This document shows, piece by piece, positions 5,848 through 18,216 of a DNA stretch of 38,404 bases. Source of the stretch: Rhodocyclales bacterium (lineage in GTDB: Bacteria; Pseudomonadota; Gammaproteobacteria; Burkholderiales; Rhodocyclaceae). Below the pieces are notes generated by a model. The model did not search any database. It was not told the DNA's origin and saw only the letters and a list, made by a program, of their open reading frames with translations. The DNA lies in NCBI GenBank assembly GCA_016235765.1, contig JACRIZ010000111.1, positions 1 through 38,404 on the forward strand, in the 5' to 3' direction. Each line of letters begins with the position of its first letter. The first letter of the stretch is position 1. The translations under genes were made by a program, and so were the position numbers.

Positions 5848-8085
5848 ATGACCGCTGCCTGCCGCATCCGCGTCACCGGCCTCGTGCAGGGCGTCGGCTT
5901 CCGGCCGCACGTCTGGCGGCTGGCGACGGAGACGGGGGTGCGCGGCTGGGTGCGCAACGATTCCCAGGGCGTCGAGATTGCCGCCGAGGGTGAGCAGCTT
6001 GCCGATTTCCTCGAACGCCTGCAGCGCGAGGCGCCGCCGCTGGCGCGGGTCGACCGCATCGAGACCCGCGAAGCCTCTCCCGAACATTTCGCCGATTTCG
6101 CAATCGCCGAAAGTCAGTCCTCGCAGCACGCCACTACGGCCATCGGCCACGACACTGCCGTCTGTGCCGACTGCCTGGCCGAGATGTTCGACCCGAAAAA
6201 CCGGCGTTTCCGCCACGCCTTCATCACCTGCACGCACTGCGGACCGCGCTACACGGTGACGCGCGCGCTGCCCTACGACCGGCCGCAGACCAGCCTGGCG
6301 CCTTTCCCGCTCTGTCCCGAGTGCGAGCGCGAGTACCGCGATCCTCGTGACCGCCGCTTTCACGCCGAAACCACCTGCTGTCCCGTGTGCGGTCCGCAAC
6401 TGCGCCTGCGCGACATGGCGGGCAAGGCCATCGCGGGCGACCCGGTTGCCGAAGCGCTGCGCCTGCTGAAGTCGGGCGCCATCGTCGCCATCAAGGGCCT
6501 GGGCGGCTTCCATCTCGCCTGCGACGCGACCAATGCCGCGGCCGTCGCCACGCTGCGCGAGCGCAAGGCGCGCGAGGAGAAGCCCTTCGCGGTGATGGTC
6601 GCCGACGCGGCGAGCCTGAGCCGCTACGCCGATCCGAACCAGGACGATGTTGCGCTGCTGGAATCGCGCGAACGGCCGGTGGTGCTGGTGACCAAGCGGC
6701 CGGGCGCCGACGACCTCCTGGGTGGCGTGTCGCCACGGCTGACTTTTCTCGGCGCCATGCTGCCCTACACACCGCTGCAGCACCTCTTCTTTCACGAGGC
6801 GCCCGAGCTGGCGCTGGTGATGACCAGCGCCAATCCGGGCGGCGAACCGCTGGTGATAGCCAACGACGAGGCACTGCAACGGCTGGCCGGCATTGCCGAT
6901 GCCATCCTCGACCACGATCGCGAGATCCTGATCCGCTGCGACGACAGCGTGCGCACGGCGACGCAACTGATCCGCCGAGCCCGCGGCTACACGCCGCGGC
7001 CGATCAAACTGTCGAAGTCCGGCCGGTCGGTCCTGGCGCTGGGCGGCTGGTACAAGAACACGATCTGCATCACGCGCGGGGACGAAGCCTTCGTCTCGCA
7101 GCACGTCGGCGATCTCGACAACGCGGCGACGGTCGGCTTCCTCGAAGAGACCGTGGCGCACCTGCTGGGCATTCTCGAAGTCCAGCCCGCCATGATCGTG
7201 CACGACCTGCATCCCGATTTCGCCTCGACACGGCTGGCGGTGCAAACGGCCGCCGAGCGCGGCATCCCGGCGCTGGCCGTGCAGCACCACCACGCCCACA
7301 TCGCCGCGGTGCTGGCCGAGCACGGCCATGACGGTCCGGCGCTGGGACTGGCGCTCGACGGCGTCGGCTTGGGCAGCGACGGAAGTGCCTGGGGTGGCGA
7401 ACTGCTGCGCGTCGATGGCGCCGCCGTCAAGCGCCTCGGCCATCTCGCCGAGATTCCGCTGCCCGGCGGCGACCGCGCGGCGCGCGAACCCTGGCGCATG
7501 GGCGCGGCGGCGCTGCACCTGCTCGGGCGCGACGGCGAGATCGAAACACGCTACTCCGATCAGCCGGGCGCGGCGACGATACGGCAGATGCTGGCACGCG
7601 GTACGAGCTGTCCGGCCACGTCGAGTTGCGGCCGCTGGTTCGACGCGGCGGCGGGACTGCTGGGCATCAAGCCGGTGATGGCCTTCGAAGGTCAGGCAGC
7701 CATGCTGCTTGAAGGGTTGGCCGCGGCGCACGGCCCGGTCGCACCGATGGCCGGCGCGTGGTCGATCGGCGCCGACGGTACGCTATCCTTGATGCCGCTC
7801 ATGGCGCTTCTGGCCGATATCGACGATGCTGGCTGGGGCGCTGTGCTATTTCAGGACACTTTGGCGGCCGCATTGGCGGAATGGGTTTCGGCAGCCGCCG
7901 AACGTGAGAAGATGGACACCGTGGCGCTCGGCGGCGGCTGCTTCCTGAACCGCCTGCTCGCCGCGGATGTGCGGCGTCGCCTCGCGGCGGCGGGATTGGA
8001 AGTCCTCGAAGCGCGGCAAGTGCCGCCCAACGATGGTGGATTGAGCCTGGGCCAAGCCTGGGTTGCATTGCATACGGAGTACTGA
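5848..8085 (+). CDS. hypF: Carbamoyltransferase HypF
   Basis: A 745-residue enzyme that makes the cyanide ligand precursor by carbamoylating HypE. Domains in order: acylphosphatase (about 1-90, with VQGVGFRPH), two zinc-finger Cys sets (about 105-185, e.g. CADC, CTHC, CPEC, CPVC), a YrdC domain (about 200-390) and a Kae1/TobZ-like carbamoyltransferase domain to the end, with the metal-binding HHHAH. The stretch [14 protein letters not shown] in the YrdC part is encoded across a perfect copy of the dispersed hairpin repeat (6721-6750). Length there looks normal, so the repeat sequence substitutes for rather than disrupts the motif. Confidence 0.96.
6721..6750 (+). repeat. Dispersed hairpin repeat, copy in hypF
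   Basis: The best-matching copy: GTGGCG (6722-6727), loop TGT, CGCCAC (6731-6736), then GGCTGACTTTTC. Read in frame as GVSPRLTF. Confidence 0.85.
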
Positions 8086-9442: not shown

Positions 9443-10491
9443 GCAAGGTAAGAGAGAACTACGTCCGTCCCCTCGATCTCAAGCATGGCCGCGTCGACAT
9501 GACGCACGGCTCCGGCGGCCGGGCGATGGCCCAATTGATCGAGGAGCTGTTCGGCCGCCATTTCGACAACGAATTCCTGCGCCAGGGCAACGACGGCGCC
9601 AGCCTGCCGCTGCCGGCGGGCGGCCGGCTGGTGATGTCCTGCGACGGTCACGTTGTGTCGCCGCTGTTCTTCCCCGGCGGCGACATCGGCTGCCTGTCGG
9701 TACACGGCACCATCAACGACGTCGCGGTGATGGGGGCGCAGCCGCTCTATCTGGCGGCGAGCTTCATCCTCGAAGAGGGCTTCCCGTTGGCCGACCTGGC
9801 GAAGATCGTCGAGTCGATGGCGCTGGCGGCGAAGCATGCGGGCGTGCCCGTCGTCACCGGCGACACCAAGGTGGTCGAGGCGGGCAAGGCCGATGGCGTG
9901 TTCATCACCACCACCGGCGTCGGCGTGGTGCCCGCAGGCGTGGCGCTGTCCGGCGACCGCGCGCGGCCGGGCGACGTCATCCTGCTTTCCGGCACCATCG
10001 GCGACCACGGCATGGCGATCATGGCGCTGCGGGAAAGCCTCGGCTTTTCGGCGCCCATCGTCTCCGACACCGCGGCGCTGCATGGCCTGATCGCGGCGAT
10101 GCTGGCCTGCGGCGCCGACATCCGCTGCCTGCGCGATCCGACGCGCGGCGGCCTGGCCACCACGCTCAACGAGATCGCGCGCCAGTCGGGCGTCGGCATG
10201 ATGCTCGACGAGGCCGCCATTCCGGTGAATCCGGAAGTGGCCGCCGCCTGCGAGTTCCTCGGCCTTGATCCGCTCTATGTCGCCAACGAGGGCAAGCTGA
10301 TCGCCATCGTCGCCGATGGCGACGCGGACAAGCTGCTGGCCGCGATGCGCGCGCATCCGCAGGGCGCCCGCGCGGCGAGGATCGGCACCGTGCTGTCCGA
10401 CGACCACCATTTCGTGCAGATGACCACCGGCTTCGGCGGCCGGCGTATCGTCGATTGGCTGACCGGGGAACAACTGCCGCGGATTTGTTGA
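9439..10491 (+). CDS. hypE: Carbamoyl-dehydrating protein HypE
   Basis: A 350-residue ATP-dependent enzyme that turns the thiocarbamate on its C-terminal Cys into thiocyanate, the CN source for the active-site iron. The C-terminus is PRIC, exactly the conserved ending with the reactive Cys. The N-terminal glycine-rich MTHGSGGRAM and the DPTRGGLATTLNE block are typical of the PurM/SelD-like fold. The start is the ATG that overlaps the hypD stop; its own stop overlaps hypX by one base (TGATG). Confidence 0.96.
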   Translation: MSKVRENYVRPLDLKHGRVDMTHGSGGRAMAQLIEELFGRHFDNEFLRQGNDGASLPLPAGGRLVMSCDGHVVSPLFFPGGDIGCLSVHGTINDVAVMGAQPLYLAASFILEEGFPLADLAKIVESMALAAKHAGVPVVTGDTKVVEAGKADGVFITTTGVGVVPAGVALSGDRARPGDVILLSGTIGDHGMAIMALRESLGFSAPIVSDTAALHGLIAAMLACGADIRCLRDPTRGGLATTLNEIARQSGVGMMLDEAAIPVNPEVAAACEFLGLDPLYVANEGKLIAIVADGDADKLLAAMRAHPQGARAARIGTVLSDDHHFVQMTTGFGGRRIVDWLTGEQLPRIC

Positions 10492-12197
10492 TGCGCATCC
10501 TGTTCCTGACCCACAGCTTCAACAGCCTGACCCAGCGGCTCTACGCCGAACTGTCGGCGCGGGACCACGAGGTCTCGATCGAGTTCGACATCAACGACGC
10601 CGTCGCCGAACAGGCGGTCGATCTGTTCCGGCCGCAGCTCATCGTCGCCCCATACCTGCGCCGCGCGATTCCGGAGAGCATCTGGGCTAAACACGTCTGC
10701 CTCATCGTGCATCCGGGCATCGTCGGCGACCGCGGTCCGTCGGCGCTCGATTGGGCAATCCAGGACGGCGAGGCGGAGTGGGGCGTGACGGTGCTGCAGG
10801 CCGAGGCGGAGATGGACGCGGGGCCGGTCTGGGCCACGGCGAGCTTCCCGATGCGGCGGGGCCGTAAGGCCAGCCTTTATCGCAGCGAGGTGACCGAGGC
10901 CGCGGCGCAGGCGCTGATCGAGGCAGTGACGAAATTCGCGGCCGGCGGCAAGCCGGTGCCGCTCGTTCAAACCAATGGGTGTGGCAAACTGCGGCCGCTG
11001 ATGCGCCAGACCGACCGCGCCATCGACTGGCAGCGCGACGACAGCGCCACCGTGCTGCGCAAGATCGATTCGGCGGATGGTTTCCCGGGTGTTGCCGACC
11101 AACTGTCCGGCGAACCCTGCCATCTGTTCGACGCCTGGCCCGAGGCAAAAGTCAGTCGTGGCGATGCGCCACCCGGAGCAATCATCGGCCGGCGCGAGAC
11201 GGCATTGCTGCGCGCCACTGCCGACGGCGCGGTCTGGATCGGCCACGTCAAGCGCAAGGACGGCATCAAGCTGCCGGCGACGGTCGCCTTCGCCGAGCAG
11301 GCTTCGAAGCTGCCGGAACTGCCGCTCGACAGTTGGTGGTCGGCATCGCACACCACCTGGCAGGACATCCGCTACGAGGAGGCCGACGAGGTCGGCTTCC
11401 TGCACTTCGAGTTCTACAACGGCGCCATGGGCACGGCGCACTGCGACCGCCTGCGCGCCGCCTTCGAATGGGCACGCGGCCGGCCGACCCGCGTGCTGGT
11501 GCTGATGGGCGGTGCCGACTTCTGGTCGAACGGCATCCACCTCAACCTGATCGAGCAGTCGGCGAGCCCCGCCGACGAGTCCTGGGCCAACATCAACGCC
11601 ATCGACGACCTGGCCGAAGCCATTCTGCGCTGCGACGACAAGCTCACGGTGGCGGCGCTGCGCGGCAATGCCGGCGCCGGCGGGTCCTTCCTGGCGCGCG
11701 CGGCCGACCAGGTCTGGGTGCGCGACGGCGTCATGCTCAATCCGCACTACAAGAACATGGGCAACCTCTACGGCTCGGAATTCTGGAGCTACCTGCTGCC
11801 GCCGCGGGTCGGCAGCGAGGGCGCCAGCGCGATCATGCAGCAGCGCCTGCCCATGACGGCGCGCGGGGCCGTGGCCGCCGGGTTCTACGACGCCTGCCTG
11901 GCCGGCGACCAGGCCGCCTTCCTGGCCGACGTGGCGCGGCGTGCTGCAGAGTTGGCGTCAGTTCCGGACTTTGTCGACCGCGTGCGCGACAAGCAGCGCC
12001 GCCGCGCGGCGGACGAGGCGGCCAAGCCACTGGCCGTGTGGCGCAGCGAGGAACTGGAACACATGCGGCGCAACTTCTTCGGCTTCGATCCCAGCTACCA
12101 CGTGGCGCGCTGGCATTTCGTGCGCAAGTCGCCGCAGTCGTGGACGCCGCGCCACCTGGCGCGACATCGCGAGCTCGGCTGGAACATTCCCGCCTGA
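10491..12197 (+). CDS. hypX: Hydrogenase maturation protein HypX/HoxX (CO ligand synthesis)
   Basis: A 568-residue two-domain protein. The N-terminal half resembles the formyl-tetrahydrofolate-dependent formyltransferase fold (HPGIVGDRGPSALDWAI). The C-terminal half, from about residue 295, resembles enoyl-CoA hydratase (FWSNGIHLNLIE; LRGNAGAGGSFLARAADQ). Established work on the family shows HypX supplies the CO ligand from a formyl group under aerobic conditions. Its presence therefore implies hydrogenase maturation in air. A dispersed repeat copy (11147-11173) encodes AKVSRGDAPPG in the second part of the formyltransferase half, probably in a loop. The gene directly follows hypE. Confidence 0.93.
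   Translation: MRILFLTHSFNSLTQRLYAELSARDHEVSIEFDINDAVAEQAVDLFRPQLIVAPYLRRAIPESIWAKHVCLIVHPGIVGDRGPSALDWAIQDGEAEWGVTVLQAEAEMDAGPVWATASFPMRRGRKASLYRSEVTEAAAQALIEAVTKFAAGGKPVPLVQTNGCGKLRPLMRQTDRAIDWQRDDSATVLRKIDSADGFPGVADQLSGEPCHLFDAWPEAKVSRGDAPPGAIIGRRETALLRATADGAVWIGHVKRKDGIKLPATVAFAEQASKLPELPLDSWWSASHTTWQDIRYEEADEVGFLHFEFYNGAMGTAHCDRLRAAFEWARGRPTRVLVLMGGADFWSNGIHLNLIEQSASPADESWANINAIDDLAEAILRCDDKLTVAALRGNAGAGGSFLARAADQVWVRDGVMLNPHYKNMGNLYGSEFWSYLLPPRVGSEGASAIMQQRLPMTARGAVAAGFYDACLAGDQAAFLADVARRAAELASVPDFVDRVRDKQRRRAADEAAKPLAVWRSEELEHMRRNFFGFDPSYHVARWHFVRKSPQSWTPRHLARHRELGWNIPA
11147..11173 (-). repeat. Dispersed hairpin repeat, copy in hypX
   Basis: AAAAGTCAGTC followed by GTGGCG (11158-11163), ATG, CGCCAC (11167-11172). 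Read in frame as KVSRGDAP. Confidence 0.85.
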
Positions 12198-12237: not shown

Positions 12238-12558
12238 ATGTCCTGCCGGATCACCCTGTTGTTCAGCGATGGCCAGGAACTGGAAACCCTGGTGACCGAC
12301 GCCGAAATTGCCCGTTTCGATCACGACTCGGCGCACCAGTGGCTGGGGCATGAGTTCGAGGAGGCCGGCTGCGTGCCGAGCAACCCGATGGGCAAGCTGC
12401 TGGCGGCCGACAAGATCATCACGCTCGCCAAGAGCCGGACGCGCGCCGTCTTCGAGAGCGATTCGCCCTGGGTGCGCAATTACCTGGCGGCCACTGCGGC
12501 GGCACTCGGCCGCCCGGTGGTCAGTATCAACCTGGTCGACCACACGCTCGGGTTCTGA
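12238..12558 (+). CDS. Unrecognised 106-residue protein between hypX and nikR
   Basis: I do not recognise this family. It is a soluble-looking protein starting MSCRITLLFSDGQELETLV, with a predicted beta-rich N-terminus and a helical middle (SAHQWLGHEFEEAG). It has only two Cys (Cys3, and Cys in EAGCVPSN) and several His in the first 40 residues. There is no signal peptide or membrane segment. An AGAGAGAC Shine-Dalgarno precedes the ATG, and nikR starts 4 bases after its stop, so it is almost certainly expressed. The position between hypX and nikR suggests a hydrogenase- or nickel-linked role, but nothing in the sequence proves it. Confidence 0.82.
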   Translation: MSCRITLLFSDGQELETLVTDAEIARFDHDSAHQWLGHEFEEAGCVPSNPMGKLLAADKIITLAKSRTRAVFESDSPWVRNYLAATAAALGRPVVSINLVDHTLGF

Positions 12559-12562
12559 TCTC

Positions 12563-13042
12563 GTGGAACGCTTCACCATCTCGCTGGACGAGGACCTGGC
12601 GCGCGAGTTCGATGAACTGATCGCCAGGCGCGGCTACCAGAACCGCTCCGAGGCGATCCGCGACCTGCTGCGCAGCCAGTTGGAGTCGGCGCGCCAGTCG
12701 GGTTCGGCCGGCGACTACTGCGTCGCCAACCTGTCCTACGTCTATAACCACCACGAGCGCGACCTTGCCGAGCGGCTCACCGAGCTTCAGCACGGCCACC
12801 ACGACTTGACGGTGGCCACCTTGCACGCGCACCTGGACCACGACAACTGCCTGGAAAGCGTGATCCTCAAGGGCTCGGTCGGTTCGGTGCGCGCCTTCGC
12901 CGACACCCTGATCGCCGAGCGCGGCGTGCGCCACGGCAGCCTCAATGTGGTGTCGGTCGAAGTGGACCAGGGCCGCCACAGCCACGGCTACGCGCCGCGC
13001 GGCAAGCTCGCCGCCCATCTCCATTTACGCCCCAAGACCTGA
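12563..13042 (+). CDS. nikR: Nickel-responsive repressor NikR
   Basis: A 159-residue ribbon-helix-helix regulator (DNA-binding part about residues 1-45, RFTISLDEDLAREFDELI) fused to an ACT-like nickel-binding domain. All four high-affinity Ni ligands known in E. coli NikR have counterparts: H77, H88, H90 and C96. The start is a GTG 4 bases after the previous stop. The C-terminal tail is His-rich (HSHGY, AAHLHLRP), longer than in the E. coli protein. It is the last gene of the hup-hyp operon, so NikR is probably made together with the Ni-loading machinery. A matching operator is found on the nicT promoter. Confidence 0.95.
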   Translation: MERFTISLDEDLAREFDELIARRGYQNRSEAIRDLLRSQLESARQSGSAGDYCVANLSYVYNHHERDLAERLTELQHGHHDLTVATLHAHLDHDNCLESVILKGSVGSVRAFADTLIAERGVRHGSLNVVSVEVDQGRHSHGYAPRGKLAAHLHLRPKT

Positions 13043-15603: not shown

Positions 15604-16095
15604 ATGACAGGATCGTCCGTCCTGCCGGATCGCTCGGCCGCCGAGCAGGCGCGGGTCGAAGGCCTGTTGCGCGAGATTTTCGACCAGCGGATACGCTTCA
15701 ATCACTGGCTCGGACTGAGGGTGCATTCGCTGGCGCCGGCCGCGCCGCAGTTGGCCTTCGACATGCGCGACGAACTGATCGGCAACTTCGTCCAGGGCCG
15801 CCTGCACGGCGGCATGATCGCCGCCACGCTCGACACCGTCGGCGGCCTGGCCGTCGCGGTGGCCGTCGCCGAGAAGCACAAGAGCGAAACGGCCGAACAG
15901 ATCGGCCATCGCTTCAACCGGGTCGGCACCATCGACATGCGGGTCGATTACCTGCGACCCGGCATCGGCCGCGGCTTCGTCGCCACCGGCCGGGTGATCC
16001 GCCTCGGTGGGCGCATCGCCTCGGTGCAGATGATGCTGGAGAACGAGGGTGGCGAAACCATCGCCACCGGCACTGCGGCCTACGTGATCACCTGA
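15604..16095 (+). CDS. Hot-dog fold thioesterase (PaaI/YigI-like)
   Basis: A 163-residue single hot-dog domain. The segment GNFVQGRLHGGMIAATLDTVG matches the active-site helix region of PaaI-type acyl-CoA thioesterases, where an H-G-G followed by an acidic residue on the helix is typical. MRVDYLRPGIG is the usual central strand. It lies 13 bases after the c-di-GMP gene and may be cotranscribed with it. The substrate cannot be inferred. Confidence 0.85.
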   Translation: MTGSSVLPDRSAAEQARVEGLLREIFDQRIRFNHWLGLRVHSLAPAAPQLAFDMRDELIGNFVQGRLHGGMIAATLDTVGGLAVAVAVAEKHKSETAEQIGHRFNRVGTIDMRVDYLRPGIGRGFVATGRVIRLGGRIASVQMMLENEGGETIATGTAAYVIT

Positions 16096-16104
16096 TCCGG
16101 CCGG

Positions 16105-16467
16105 CTACCTGGACGACGTACCGTCGGTGACGGGAGCGGGTTCCCGGCTGCCGCCCTTGACGGAACTTCCCACGTCCTTGGCGGCGTCGCGCACGGCGTG
16201 ACCGGCCTTGATCGCCGTGTCCTTGGCGGCGCGGCCGACAGTCACTGCCGTATCCTTGACGGCATGGCCGACGCCGACGCCGGCATCCTTGGCGGCATGG
16301 CCGATTTCAACCGCCGTATCCTTCACGGCACGGCCGGCGCCCGCGGCGGCCTGACCGATGCTTTCGTCGGACTTGGCCGGTGCCTGGCTGTCCTCCGCCC
16401 GTCCGTAACTGACATTGCTGAGCAGAATCATCAACATGACGCTGAGGCTGGTGGCGATTTTTCTCAT
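16105..16467 (-). CDS. Exported LEA-like protein with 11-residue tandem repeats
   Basis: A 120-residue protein with an N-terminal signal peptide (MRKIATSLSVMLMILLSNVSYGRA, cleavage near residue 24). About five consecutive 11-residue units follow: AVKDTAVEIGH, AAKDAGVGVGH, AVKDTAVTVGR, AAKDTAIKAGH, AVRDAAKDVGS. An 11-residue period rich in Ala, Lys, Asp and Thr resembles group-3 LEA/apolipoprotein-like amphipathic helices. The DNA carries a matching 33-base tandem repeat. GGAGAG lies 4 bases before the ATG. It is likely an envelope stress or membrane-associated helix protein, but the function is inferred only from repeat type. It is convergent with the thioesterase and divergent from nicT. Confidence 0.8.
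   Translation of the reverse strand: MRKIATSLSVMLMILLSNVSYGRAEDSQAPAKSDESIGQAAAGAGRAVKDTAVEIGHAAKDAGVGVGHAVKDTAVTVGRAAKDTAIKAGHAVRDAAKDVGSSVKGGSREPAPVTDGTSSR
16168..16345 (-). repeat. 33-bp tandem repeats encoding 11-residue units
   Basis: Five to six imperfect 33-base units inside the LEA-like gene, recognisable on the plus strand by recurring TCCTTGGCGGC / TCCTTGACGGC blocks separated by 33 bases. The period matches the 11-residue protein repeat, so the array is coding. Unit number could vary between strains by slippage or recombination. Confidence 0.8.
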
Positions 16468-16558
16468 GGGTCTCTCCGTGTCCACTACTTGATCGATTCT
16501 ATAGGACTCGCGCCCGGGATCGAGGTTCTGTCGCCAGGGGGCGACTCGATAAAAAATG

Positions 16559-16596
16559 CTGGCACCAGTAAGAACAATGGGTATAGACTTCTTACC
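16559..16596 (+). promoter_or_regulatory. nicT promoter with overlapping NikR-type operator
   Basis: A sigma70-like promoter reads CTGGCA (16559-16564), 17 bases, TATAGA (16582-16587), predicting a start site at about 16594-16597, on or beside the ATG at 16597. Overlapping it is the inverted repeat GTAAGA (16568-16573) N16 TCTTAC (16590-16595). E. coli NikR binds GTATGA-N16-TCATAC, so arm length, spacing and sequence agree apart from one base in each arm. No Shine-Dalgarno is seen before the ATG, so the transcript may be leaderless. NikR with nickel would cover the -10 element and repress transcription. Confidence 0.72.
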
Positions 16597-17415
16597 ATGG
16601 ATATCGATCTTCCCGCCGAATGGTCCGCCCTGTGTCTGCTGGTGTTCGCGTTGGGCGCTCGGCACGGCCTCGACGCAGACCACCTGGCCGCCATCGACGG
16701 CATGACGCGCTTCAATGCGCGCGTCCGGCCGGGCTTGGCGCGCGTCTGCGGCACGCTGTTCTCGGTGGGCCACGGCGCGGTGGTCGTCACCATTGCCCTG
16801 ACCGTCAGTGCGATCGCCGGGCATTGGCAGGCGCCGGCTTGGCTCGAGGTCTCGGGTTCGCTGGTTTCCATCGTGATCCTCACCGGCCTGGGTTTCGTCA
16901 ATCTGTATGCAGTGTTGAACACGGCACCCGATGAGGTGGTCCAGCCGATCGGCCTGCGGGGGCGCTTCCTGGGGCGTTTGCTGCGCGTCGATCACCCCGC
17001 GGCAGTCATGGCAGTCGGCGCGATGTTCGCACTTTCCTTCGATACCGTCAGCCAGGCGTTGCTGTTCGCGCTGACGGCCGAGCAGTTTGGCGGGTGGCGG
17101 TCCGCCCTGCTTCTGGGGCTGCTGTTCATGTCCGGCATGTTGCTTACCGACGGCATCAACGGCTTCTGGATTTCGCGCCTGATCCGGCGCGCGGACCAGA
17201 CGGCCAGGATCGCGTCGCGCGCGATGGGACTGGTGGTTGCCATACTCAGCCTCGCGGTCGCCGGCTTCAGCTTGGCGAAGTGGTCGCTGCCCGCGATCGA
17301 CGCCTGGGGTGAGGGCAAGGACCTCGCCCTCGGCATGGGGGTTATTTCCGTCATTGCGGCGAGCTTCCTGTTCGCCATGTGGCTGGCGCGGCGACCGATC
17401 TCGACCGCGCGCTAG
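16597..17415 (+). CDS. nicT: NiCoT-family nickel transporter
   Basis: A 272-residue membrane permease for nickel (possibly cobalt). The signature H-x4-D-H of helix II is present as RHGLDADHLAAID near residue 23, and TLFSVGHGAVV and ALSFDTVSQALLF are the next conserved NiCoT blocks. About eight hydrophobic segments are seen. The ATG follows directly after the NikR-like operator; starts further downstream would remove the metal-selectivity motif. hupK follows after 3 bases. Together with nikR it forms a supply loop for the hydrogenase. Confidence 0.93.
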   Translation: MDIDLPAEWSALCLLVFALGARHGLDADHLAAIDGMTRFNARVRPGLARVCGTLFSVGHGAVVVTIALTVSAIAGHWQAPAWLEVSGSLVSIVILTGLGFVNLYAVLNTAPDEVVQPIGLRGRFLGRLLRVDHPAAVMAVGAMFALSFDTVSQALLFALTAEQFGGWRSALLLGLLFMSGMLLTDGINGFWISRLIRRADQTARIASRAMGLVVAILSLAVAGFSLAKWSLPAIDAWGEGKDLALGMGVISVIAASFLFAMWLARRPISTAR

Positions 17416-17418
17416 GCA

Positions 17419-18216
17419 ATGAGCGGTTTCGATCCAGGGCGTGTCCGCCTGCGCCTGACCATGGTTGCCGGCACGGTCGAGGCCGCCGCAGTGGCCTGCG
17501 AGCGTCCGGACGTGGCGCGGCTGCTGCGCGGCCAGCAGGCCGACCAGGCCGTGGCGCTGGTGCCGCTGATCTATTCGCTGTGCGGCAAGGCGCAAGGCAT
17601 CGCGGCGCAGGCGGCACTGGCCGCAGCACGCGGCAAAGCCACCGAAGCGCATGTCGATGCCGAGGCGCTGGCGGAGGCCGCGCGCGAGCACGCCTGGAAG
17701 CTGCTCGTCGATTGGCCGCGACAACTCGGTGTCGCCCCTGACGAAGCGCTCTTCGTTCGTTTGATGCGCGCGGCGCCGGAGCAGCGCGCCGAACTGGCGG
17801 CCGAAGTGACCGAACATCCTTTGCCCGCGGCCATGCGGGCCAAGCTGGCAGCCACCGATATCGATCGGTTGTTCGCAGACCGTATCGCCGCGCGCCTTGG
17901 CGAACTGCGCGATTGGCTGCTGGGCCGACCCGGCACGCTGGGCTCGCTACGGGCGGCCGGCATCGGGCCCGGCGTCGGCGAGGCGGATATCGAAACCGCG
18001 CGCGGCGCGTTGACCCATCGGCTGGTGCTGGAAGGCGACCGGATAGCGGATTACGCGATCACCGCACCGACCGACGTGCACTTCGCGGTGGGCGGCGATG
18101 CGGCTCGCTGGCTGGAAAGGCTGAAGGGGCTGCCGCGGGTGGAAGCCGAGCGCCAGGCTTTGCTGCTGGTGCTGGCCTTCGATCCCTGCGTACCCTGGGA
18201 CTGCGCTACAACCTAG
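17419..18216 (+). CDS. hupK: Hydrogenase cofactor-assembly protein HupK/HoxV
   Basis: A 265-residue protein related to the hydrogenase large subunit but shortened. LIYSLCGKAQGIAAQAAL corresponds to the N-terminal Cys region with only one Cys left. The end FDPCVPWD recalls the DPCxxC of large subunits. This is the HupK/HoxV pattern; HoxV is reported to act as a scaffold for the Fe(CN)2CO group en route to the large subunit. It is cotranscribed with nicT (3-base gap) instead of lying in the hup operon. Its TAG stop overlaps the stop of the convergent ydcH-like gene in the palindrome CTAG. Confidence 0.83.
   Translation: MSGFDPGRVRLRLTMVAGTVEAAAVACERPDVARLLRGQQADQAVALVPLIYSLCGKAQGIAAQAALAAARGKATEAHVDAEALAEAAREHAWKLLVDWPRQLGVAPDEALFVRLMRAAPEQRAELAAEVTEHPLPAAMRAKLAATDIDRLFADRIAARLGELRDWLLGRPGTLGSLRAAGIGPGVGEADIETARGALTHRLVLEGDRIADYAITAPTDVHFAVGGDAARWLERLKGLPRVEAERQALLLVLAFDPCVPWDCATT

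Follow-up and report, generated by a model that had tools for sequence, protein, structure and literature searches.

A probable NikR operator over a predicted sigma-70 type nickel permease promoter in a Rhodocyclaceae bacterium, and its overlap with sigma-54-like elements in relatives

Introduction

The closest described counterpart of the site considered here is the NikR operator of the Escherichia coli nickel importer operon nikABCDE, which reads GTATGA-N16-TCATAC and lies within the importer promoter (PMC7055735). As far as the accessible text of that account goes, half-site, spacing, a four-ligand repressor and an operator placed in an importer promoter are features that E. coli has in common with the locus examined here. 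This locus lies in a window of 38,404 nucleotides (the whole stretch of DNA that was analysed) from a Rhodocyclales bacterium of the family Rhodocyclaceae. Unlike in E. coli, where the importer is an ABC system, that of the window is a NicO permease, half-sites differ in their fourth base (T, A or G), the operator abuts the start codon, and nikR follows the hyp genes. NikR regulons of delta-proteobacteria likewise have a 27–28 bp inverted repeat upstream of nickel transporters, whereas their half-site sequence is different (GTGTTAC-N13/14-GTAACAC) and the transporters, in the accessible part of the description, are of the nikMNQO type (PMC545781). NikR control of Ni-specific NiCoT permeases has already been predicted in general, although the accessible part of that report gives no sites for the family of the window and no overlap with sigma-54 (PMC2667541). 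A parallel for the promoter comes from Cupriavidus, in which hydrogenase genes are controlled by HoxA/RpoN, with RpoD promoters in C. metallidurans; the activator type and the inferred change from sigma-54 to sigma-70 are, on the accessible text, the same as in the present case (PMC9045368). Here, in contrast to those hydrogenase genes, the regulated gene is a nickel permease, a NikR operator lies over both promoter classes, and a HoxA-like gene is retained in the window genome.

Regulation of a nickel permease by NikR is familiar as a type of circuit. The present comparison adds a set of loci from across the family in which a single operator persists while the class of promoter beneath it apparently changes several times, and in which the presence or absence of two cognate proteins provides natural tests. 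Such a set makes it directly testable how a gene can exchange a dedicated sigma-54 activator for the housekeeping polymerase and still keep its repressor. No description of a NikR/sigma-54 composite was found in a literature search that covered titles and the openings of abstracts, outside most subscription journals. Our main reading, to which we assign a probability of about 0.8, is that nickel-loaded NikR bound at 16568–16595 blocks a sigma-70 promoter of nicT, and that the corresponding operator of many relatives lies on a sigma-54-like promoter that is absent in the genus of the window.

The permease gene and the dyad upstream of it

The permease gene, its neighbours and the operator are as follows; the congener is genome G004, whose nicT is 79% identical to that of the window.

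16597–17415, forward strand: nicT (working name), NicO-family permease of 272 amino acids (PF03824, E 2.6e-14)
17419–18216, forward strand: open reading frame 3 nt past nicT, with no Pfam or NCBIfam match; adjoins nicT in the congener at 61% identity
16105–16467, reverse strand: divergent open reading frame with no family match and a start 100 bp to the left of the operator; present in the congener at 66%
16568–16595, forward strand: very probable NikR operator GTAAGAA-N14-TTCTTAC, a perfect 7+7 dyad, assigned from the sequence and from such sites upstream of nicT in relatives

The NicO domain of nicT scores 53.7 bits against a cut-off of 27.7, and the start codon agrees with those of its homologues. 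The profile for the HoxN/HupN/NixA subfamily (TIGR00802) gives 62.5 bits (E 4.4e-17) and does not reach its cut-off of 333. Because this score is so far under the HoxN/HupN cut-off, nicT is used as a working name only, and the product appears to be a divergent NicO permease that is not filed as HoxN. The open reading frame at 17419–18216 is probably part of the same operon. In two relatives (loci L028 and L029 of genomes G194 and G075), one TGA is counted within the nicT match of each.

The preliminary description of this DNA had placed a NikR-type operator, GTAAGA-N16-TCTTAC, on the nicT promoter. The motif is present exactly, at 16568–16595, and its arms extend to the perfect 7+7 dyad listed above; each arm of the motif is one base away from the E. 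coli operator as printed in PMC7055735. The halves of the dyad resemble GTATGAA and form an inverted repeat that falls in the 27–28 bp length class and lies at the promoter of a nickel gene. A scan of the 3.16 Mb assembly (87% complete), which had been suggested along with the motif, returns it as the sole exact copy. With up to two mismatches allowed, the window contains one match to the site, compared to a mean of 0.16 in shuffled sequences. The dyad by itself is suggestive evidence for a NikR operator, and the case for such an operator is made by conservation, beyond dyad symmetry. That the dyad is a site of another regulator, or a product of chance, could be argued because perfect 7+7 dyads with a span of 27 or 28 occur 14 times in the window (76,808 places tried). 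Yet the dyad at 16568–16595 is the only one of the 14 with at least five A/T per arm, and its conservation upstream of nicT together with its co-occurrence with nikR make this explanation extremely improbable. On the evidence of related sequences, the dyad is very probably a NikR operator.

In the rest of the genome, matches with two or three mismatches are no commoner than in a backward control (9 vs 15 in one scan and 51 vs 73 in another). One candidate second target, at 7043–7070 of contig C45 (1501–1528 of locus L024), reads GTAAGAA-N14-CTCATAC and precedes a tonB gene; it is probably no operator. This dyad recurs in two congeners (L123 and L124), where it matches the coding start of a divergent HNH open reading frame seen in L024, and regions upstream of tonB in the other loci scanned score 7–11 of 14, which also speaks against a NikR site. 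In this genome, at 87% completeness, nicT is the only NikR target supported.

NikR and the hyp genes

Two genes are relevant to the repressor.

12563–13042, forward strand: nikR, GTG start, 159 amino acids, with RHH and NikR_C domains, identified by domain profiles and alignment
12238–12558, forward strand: open reading frame of 106 amino acids between hypX and nikR, with no Pfam match; precedes nikR in the congener at 80%

Both NikR domains exceed their cut-offs (PF01402, 47.1 bits; PF08753, 106.3 bits). Among the NikR family profiles, NF002815 gives 208.1 bits (cut-off 83) and TIGR02793 gives 168.1 bits, just below its threshold of 175.45. The view that this NikR carries all four nickel ligands holds: H77, H88, H90 and C96 align with positions of E. 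coli NikR (chain of 1q5v/2hza) whose residue numbers we take to be those of the nickel ligands. The HHHC ligand set is found in 30/30 nikR loci among the matches listed, with 51 genomes having a nikR match. The recognition motif R-x-T-x-S is identical in the 30 nikR loci listed (one of them without a start), and there is therefore no covariation of the recognition residues with the half-site variants GTAAGAA, GTATGAA and GTAGGAA.

As nikR begins 4 nt past the stop of the preceding open reading frame, which is itself downstream of hypX, it is plausibly the last, or nearly the last, gene of the hyp transcript; the open reading frame downstream of nikR is also on the forward strand. HypF, HypD and HupD score above their NCBIfam cut-offs, and the remaining hyp gene names are based on the look of the sequence. 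In the window, hypX (10455–12197) lies between hypE and the open reading frame that precedes nikR. No hypX was detected in the 16.8-kb locus L048 of the congener (tblastn, E 1e-5), in which hypE is followed by that open reading frame and nikR.

Conservation of the operator and co-occurrence with nikR

Homologues of nicT were found in 60/199 genomes of the family and in 20/61 relatives. The comparison set comprises 68 nicT upstream regions from 64 genomes, with 64 of the regions from the family of the window; partial or weak nicT matches (L020–L023 of G005 and G052, and two weak matches in G179) were left out of the counts. An operator was called where two GTATGAA/GTAAGAA-like halves with a span of 27–28 scored at least 11 of 14. 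Such an operator occurs upstream of nicT in 50 of the 68 regions, with 41 scoring at least 12, and the same scan inside the gene, used as a control, gives 0/68. The commonest arms in relatives are GTATGAA/TTCATAC. For 200 permuted half-site pairs the mean is 3.05 regions, with top values of 39, 36, 26, 25 and 12, where the pairs scoring 39 and 36 retain GTAAGAA as one half. The dyad of the congener falls short of this threshold with 10 of 14; its inclusion by hand brings the number of operators to 51.

The operator is largely present where nikR is present and decayed where nikR is absent. Among the 64 genomes, 48 have both, 11 have neither, two have the operator only and three have nikR only (Fisher p 3e-8, with the weaker site of the congener counted as an operator by hand). 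By region and at the bare threshold, the corresponding counts are 48, 13, 2 and 5 (Fisher p 2e-8); the Fisher tests reported here ignore relatedness. The two genomes with an operator and no detected nikR (G179 and G189) are represented by assemblies that are 80% and 89% complete, respectively. Of the three genomes with nikR and no operator, G030 has a nikR disrupted by frame changes, and G080 and G084 have nikR and no standard site. The second nicT of G208 (L085) has no operator although the genome has nikR. In G080 (L071), where nikR reads open, half-sites in direct order, GTAGGAA-N13-GTATGAA, lie between about 92 and 66 nt upstream of the nicT match. Conservation in relatives and co-occurrence with nikR lend good support to the proposal of a NikR operator on the nicT promoter.

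Sigma-54-like elements in relatives

Of the 51 operators (the 50 called and that of the congener), 28 have a left half-site that overlaps a sigma-54-like promoter of the form TGGCAYG-N4-TTGTA or close to it. The first bases of that half-site double as the -12, such that TTG|TATGAA serves both. These 28 score at least 11 of 15 at one offset against the consensus TGGCAC-N5-TTGC, a score whose -12 contribution comes at least partly from bases of the operator itself. TGGCAC with at most one mismatch, which uses no operator bases, occurs at a single offset in 20/51 operators, whereas offsets away from that one average 0.25. Across 69 other offsets tried, a sigma-54 score of at least 11 is reached in 4/51 regions (L005, L009, L046 and L078). 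The element also occurs apart from the operator: four regions, of which L041, L066 and L074 are without detected nikR and L010 has a disrupted one, have no operator and an element that scores 13–14 of 15, which is equalled in none of 200 shuffles. Region L063, with no operator, nikR or HoxA, scores 12 of 15 (0/200 shuffles as good); it was kept out of the sigma-54 group for lack of the TGGCAC..TTG form.

HoxA was sought with a query from L049, where it lies downstream of a hypX-like reading, and was scored as present above 500 bits, which falls in a gap between 509 and 392. The search covered 61 of the 64 genomes (not G046, G038 and G048). Within the best 25 candidates per genome, a HoxA ortholog was found in 31/32 genomes with the element and in 16/29 without (Fisher p 1.2e-4), or in 31/33 and 16/28 if L063 is added to the element group. 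The sole element genome without HoxA is a 79%-complete assembly, and HoxA absences are weak for G021, G189 and G194, whose assemblies are 79–89% complete.

The TGGCAC of relatives could instead be an extension of the NikR site or a site of another factor. The -12 of the element reads TTGTA or TTGTT with T in place of the C of TTGCA, which favours such an explanation. Against it, both elements are at sigma-54 spacing, the element persists in the four regions named above that have lost the operator and in which nikR is missing or disrupted, and it is absent in 13 of the 14 genomes without a HoxA ortholog (12 if L063 is counted). We consider a role unrelated to sigma-54 unlikely, and the element is treated below as sigma-54-like.

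The promoter beneath the window operator

Four further features lie in or near the operator of the window.

16551–16556, forward strand: A6 tract around -43 to -38 relative to the predicted start, a possible UP-element subsite, also found in the congener
16559–16565, forward strand: CTGGCAC, the -35 of the preliminary description; it equals the -24 word of relatives, at a distance from the operator that is 5 bp too short and without a -12; relic or chance
16582–16587, forward strand: -10-like hexamer TATAGA inside the operator, with TATAAA at the same place in the congener
16594, forward strand: A as the predicted start of transcription, 7 nt beyond the -10, which gives a 3-nt leader; based on the -10 spacing and the equivalent A of the congener

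No sigma-54 element is present in the window or in the congener: the best score at the nicT gene of the window is 8.5 of 15, which 195/200 shuffles match. Transcription of the window gene from a sigma-54 promoter, with CTGGCAC as its -24, would find encouragement in the identity of that word with the -24 of relatives and in the presence of both rpoN and a HoxA-like gene in the genome. It is nevertheless highly unlikely, given that AGAAC stands at the spacing required for a -12, that the score is one commonly reached by shuffled sequence and that the congener has no TGGCAC before its operator. Two matches to the sigma-54 DNA-binding domain lie on contigs C72 and C26, and the HoxA-like activator is encoded on contig C23 (63% identity). 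Since the genome has rpoN and this HoxA-like gene, activator loss does not explain the missing sigma-54 element. The sister genus in the tree (L027–L029) has neither a sigma-54 element nor a HoxA ortholog. The domain match on C26 is partial (an open frame of 129 amino acids).

The promoter was originally described as CTGGCA-N17-TATAGA, and this layout is exact, with CTGGCA at 16559–16564, the 17-nt spacer at 16565–16581, TATAGA at 16582–16587 and the ATG at 16597–16599. Its two hexamers fare differently. A -10-like hexamer (at least 4 of 6) recurs at the same offset in 14/23 operators without a sigma-54 element, the congener included, vs 4/28 with one, which supports TATAGA as the -10. The -35 is not upheld: the ten-nucleotide bin that contains CTGGCA is identical to the congener at 3/10 positions, and the CTGGCA/TATAGA pair, with 8/12 matches by hand count, falls below the limit of 9 of the sigma-70 scan and is absent from its list. 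Agreement with the congener is concentrated near the gene, where 21 of the 30 nt preceding the ATG are identical (7, 7 and 7 per ten). Further upstream, the two bins beyond that of CTGGCAC have 5/10 each, with the A6 tract in the first, and those beyond have 2–6/10. In both genomes the operator ends 1 nt before the ATG, and an A lies 7 nt after the -10. The conserved offset of the -10 and the match in the congener lead us to adopt TATAGA as the -10 and A16594 as the predicted start, and not CTGGCA as an established -35.

A weak and unconserved -35, together with an A/T-rich stretch at 16549–16557, leaves some room for a start at a promoter further upstream, in which case the operator would be real, NikR would act as a roadblock in the leader and the message would not be leaderless. 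Beyond the last 30 nt there is little likeness to the congener apart from the A6 tract, the scan found no sigma-70-like promoter on the forward strand in 16095–16700, and neither the window nor the congener has a clear Shine-Dalgarno sequence; we regard an upstream start as rather unlikely, and retain the promoter under the operator as the preferred reading.

The nicT leader

The absence of a clear Shine-Dalgarno sequence at nicT, which had been cited for a leaderless message, is borne out by a duplex energy of -3.7, compared to a mean of -2.8 for random 17-mers of the window. A leaderless nicT message is plausible, with a predicted leader of 3 nt and the same geometry in the congener. Shine-Dalgarno sequences are weaker where the operator is close to the gene: an energy of -5 or better is found in 1/12 regions with the operator at most 8 nt from the start vs 13/34 at 18 nt or more (Mann-Whitney p 0.013; the group of 12 includes the congener by hand). 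Nine of these 12 regions are of the sigma-54 class, with a start predicted midway along the operator and thus a leader of about 20 nt, and they mostly have no Shine-Dalgarno either. Because the operator fills that place, a missing Shine-Dalgarno is weak evidence of leaderlessness, and its strength was rejected as a proof, as operator occupancy explains the weakness equally. RNA folding at the start of the message shows nothing (z 0.17). Among betaproteobacteria, Burkholderia cenocepacia has a minority of leaderless transcripts, with 72 plus 42 of 2089 primary starts at or at most 10 nt before the annotated start (24 of them tRNAs), where starts were mapped, whereas that of nicT in the window is predicted; these figures are from the accessible text of PMC4603805.

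Proposed regulation

In the proposed mechanism, nickel-loaded NikR would bind across 16568–16595 and cover both a housekeeping, sigma-70 type -10 and the predicted start, so that transcription of nicT would be blocked. When nickel is scarce, NikR would leave and the permease would be made, probably from a transcript that begins at A16594 with a 3-nt leader (ACC-AUG), and that would thus be leaderless or nearly so. The closed nickel loop envisaged in the preliminary description, with NikR shutting off uptake, gains support as a scheme of this conditional kind. In many relatives the operator sits on a sigma-54-like promoter, from which we infer that a HoxA-type activator turns nicT on there and nickel turns it off. 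In the genus of the window, where the sigma-54 element is absent and a sigma-70 type promoter appears to lie under the operator, the nickel off-switch would remain. The promoter presumably changed in the direction from sigma-54 to sigma-70.

We lean somewhat towards a broader view, in which bases common to a NikR operator and a sigma-54 promoter join them into a composite, with hydrogenase activator and nickel as the inputs of an AND-NOT gate. Either part would tend to decay with the loss of its own protein, and lineages of the window type would have swapped sigma-54 for sigma-70 inside a kept operator, possibly with a leaderless message. When the sigma-54 element is mapped on the tree, at least 14 changes are needed, nine of which well-supported branches make unavoidable. 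In one clade with strong support, G065 and G190 have neither HoxA nor the element, and G122, G160 and G215 have HoxA and keep the element; the same pattern is repeated between G013 and its neighbours. A strict composite scan over 300 genomes of the order found one case, and the exact strict composite is therefore rare.
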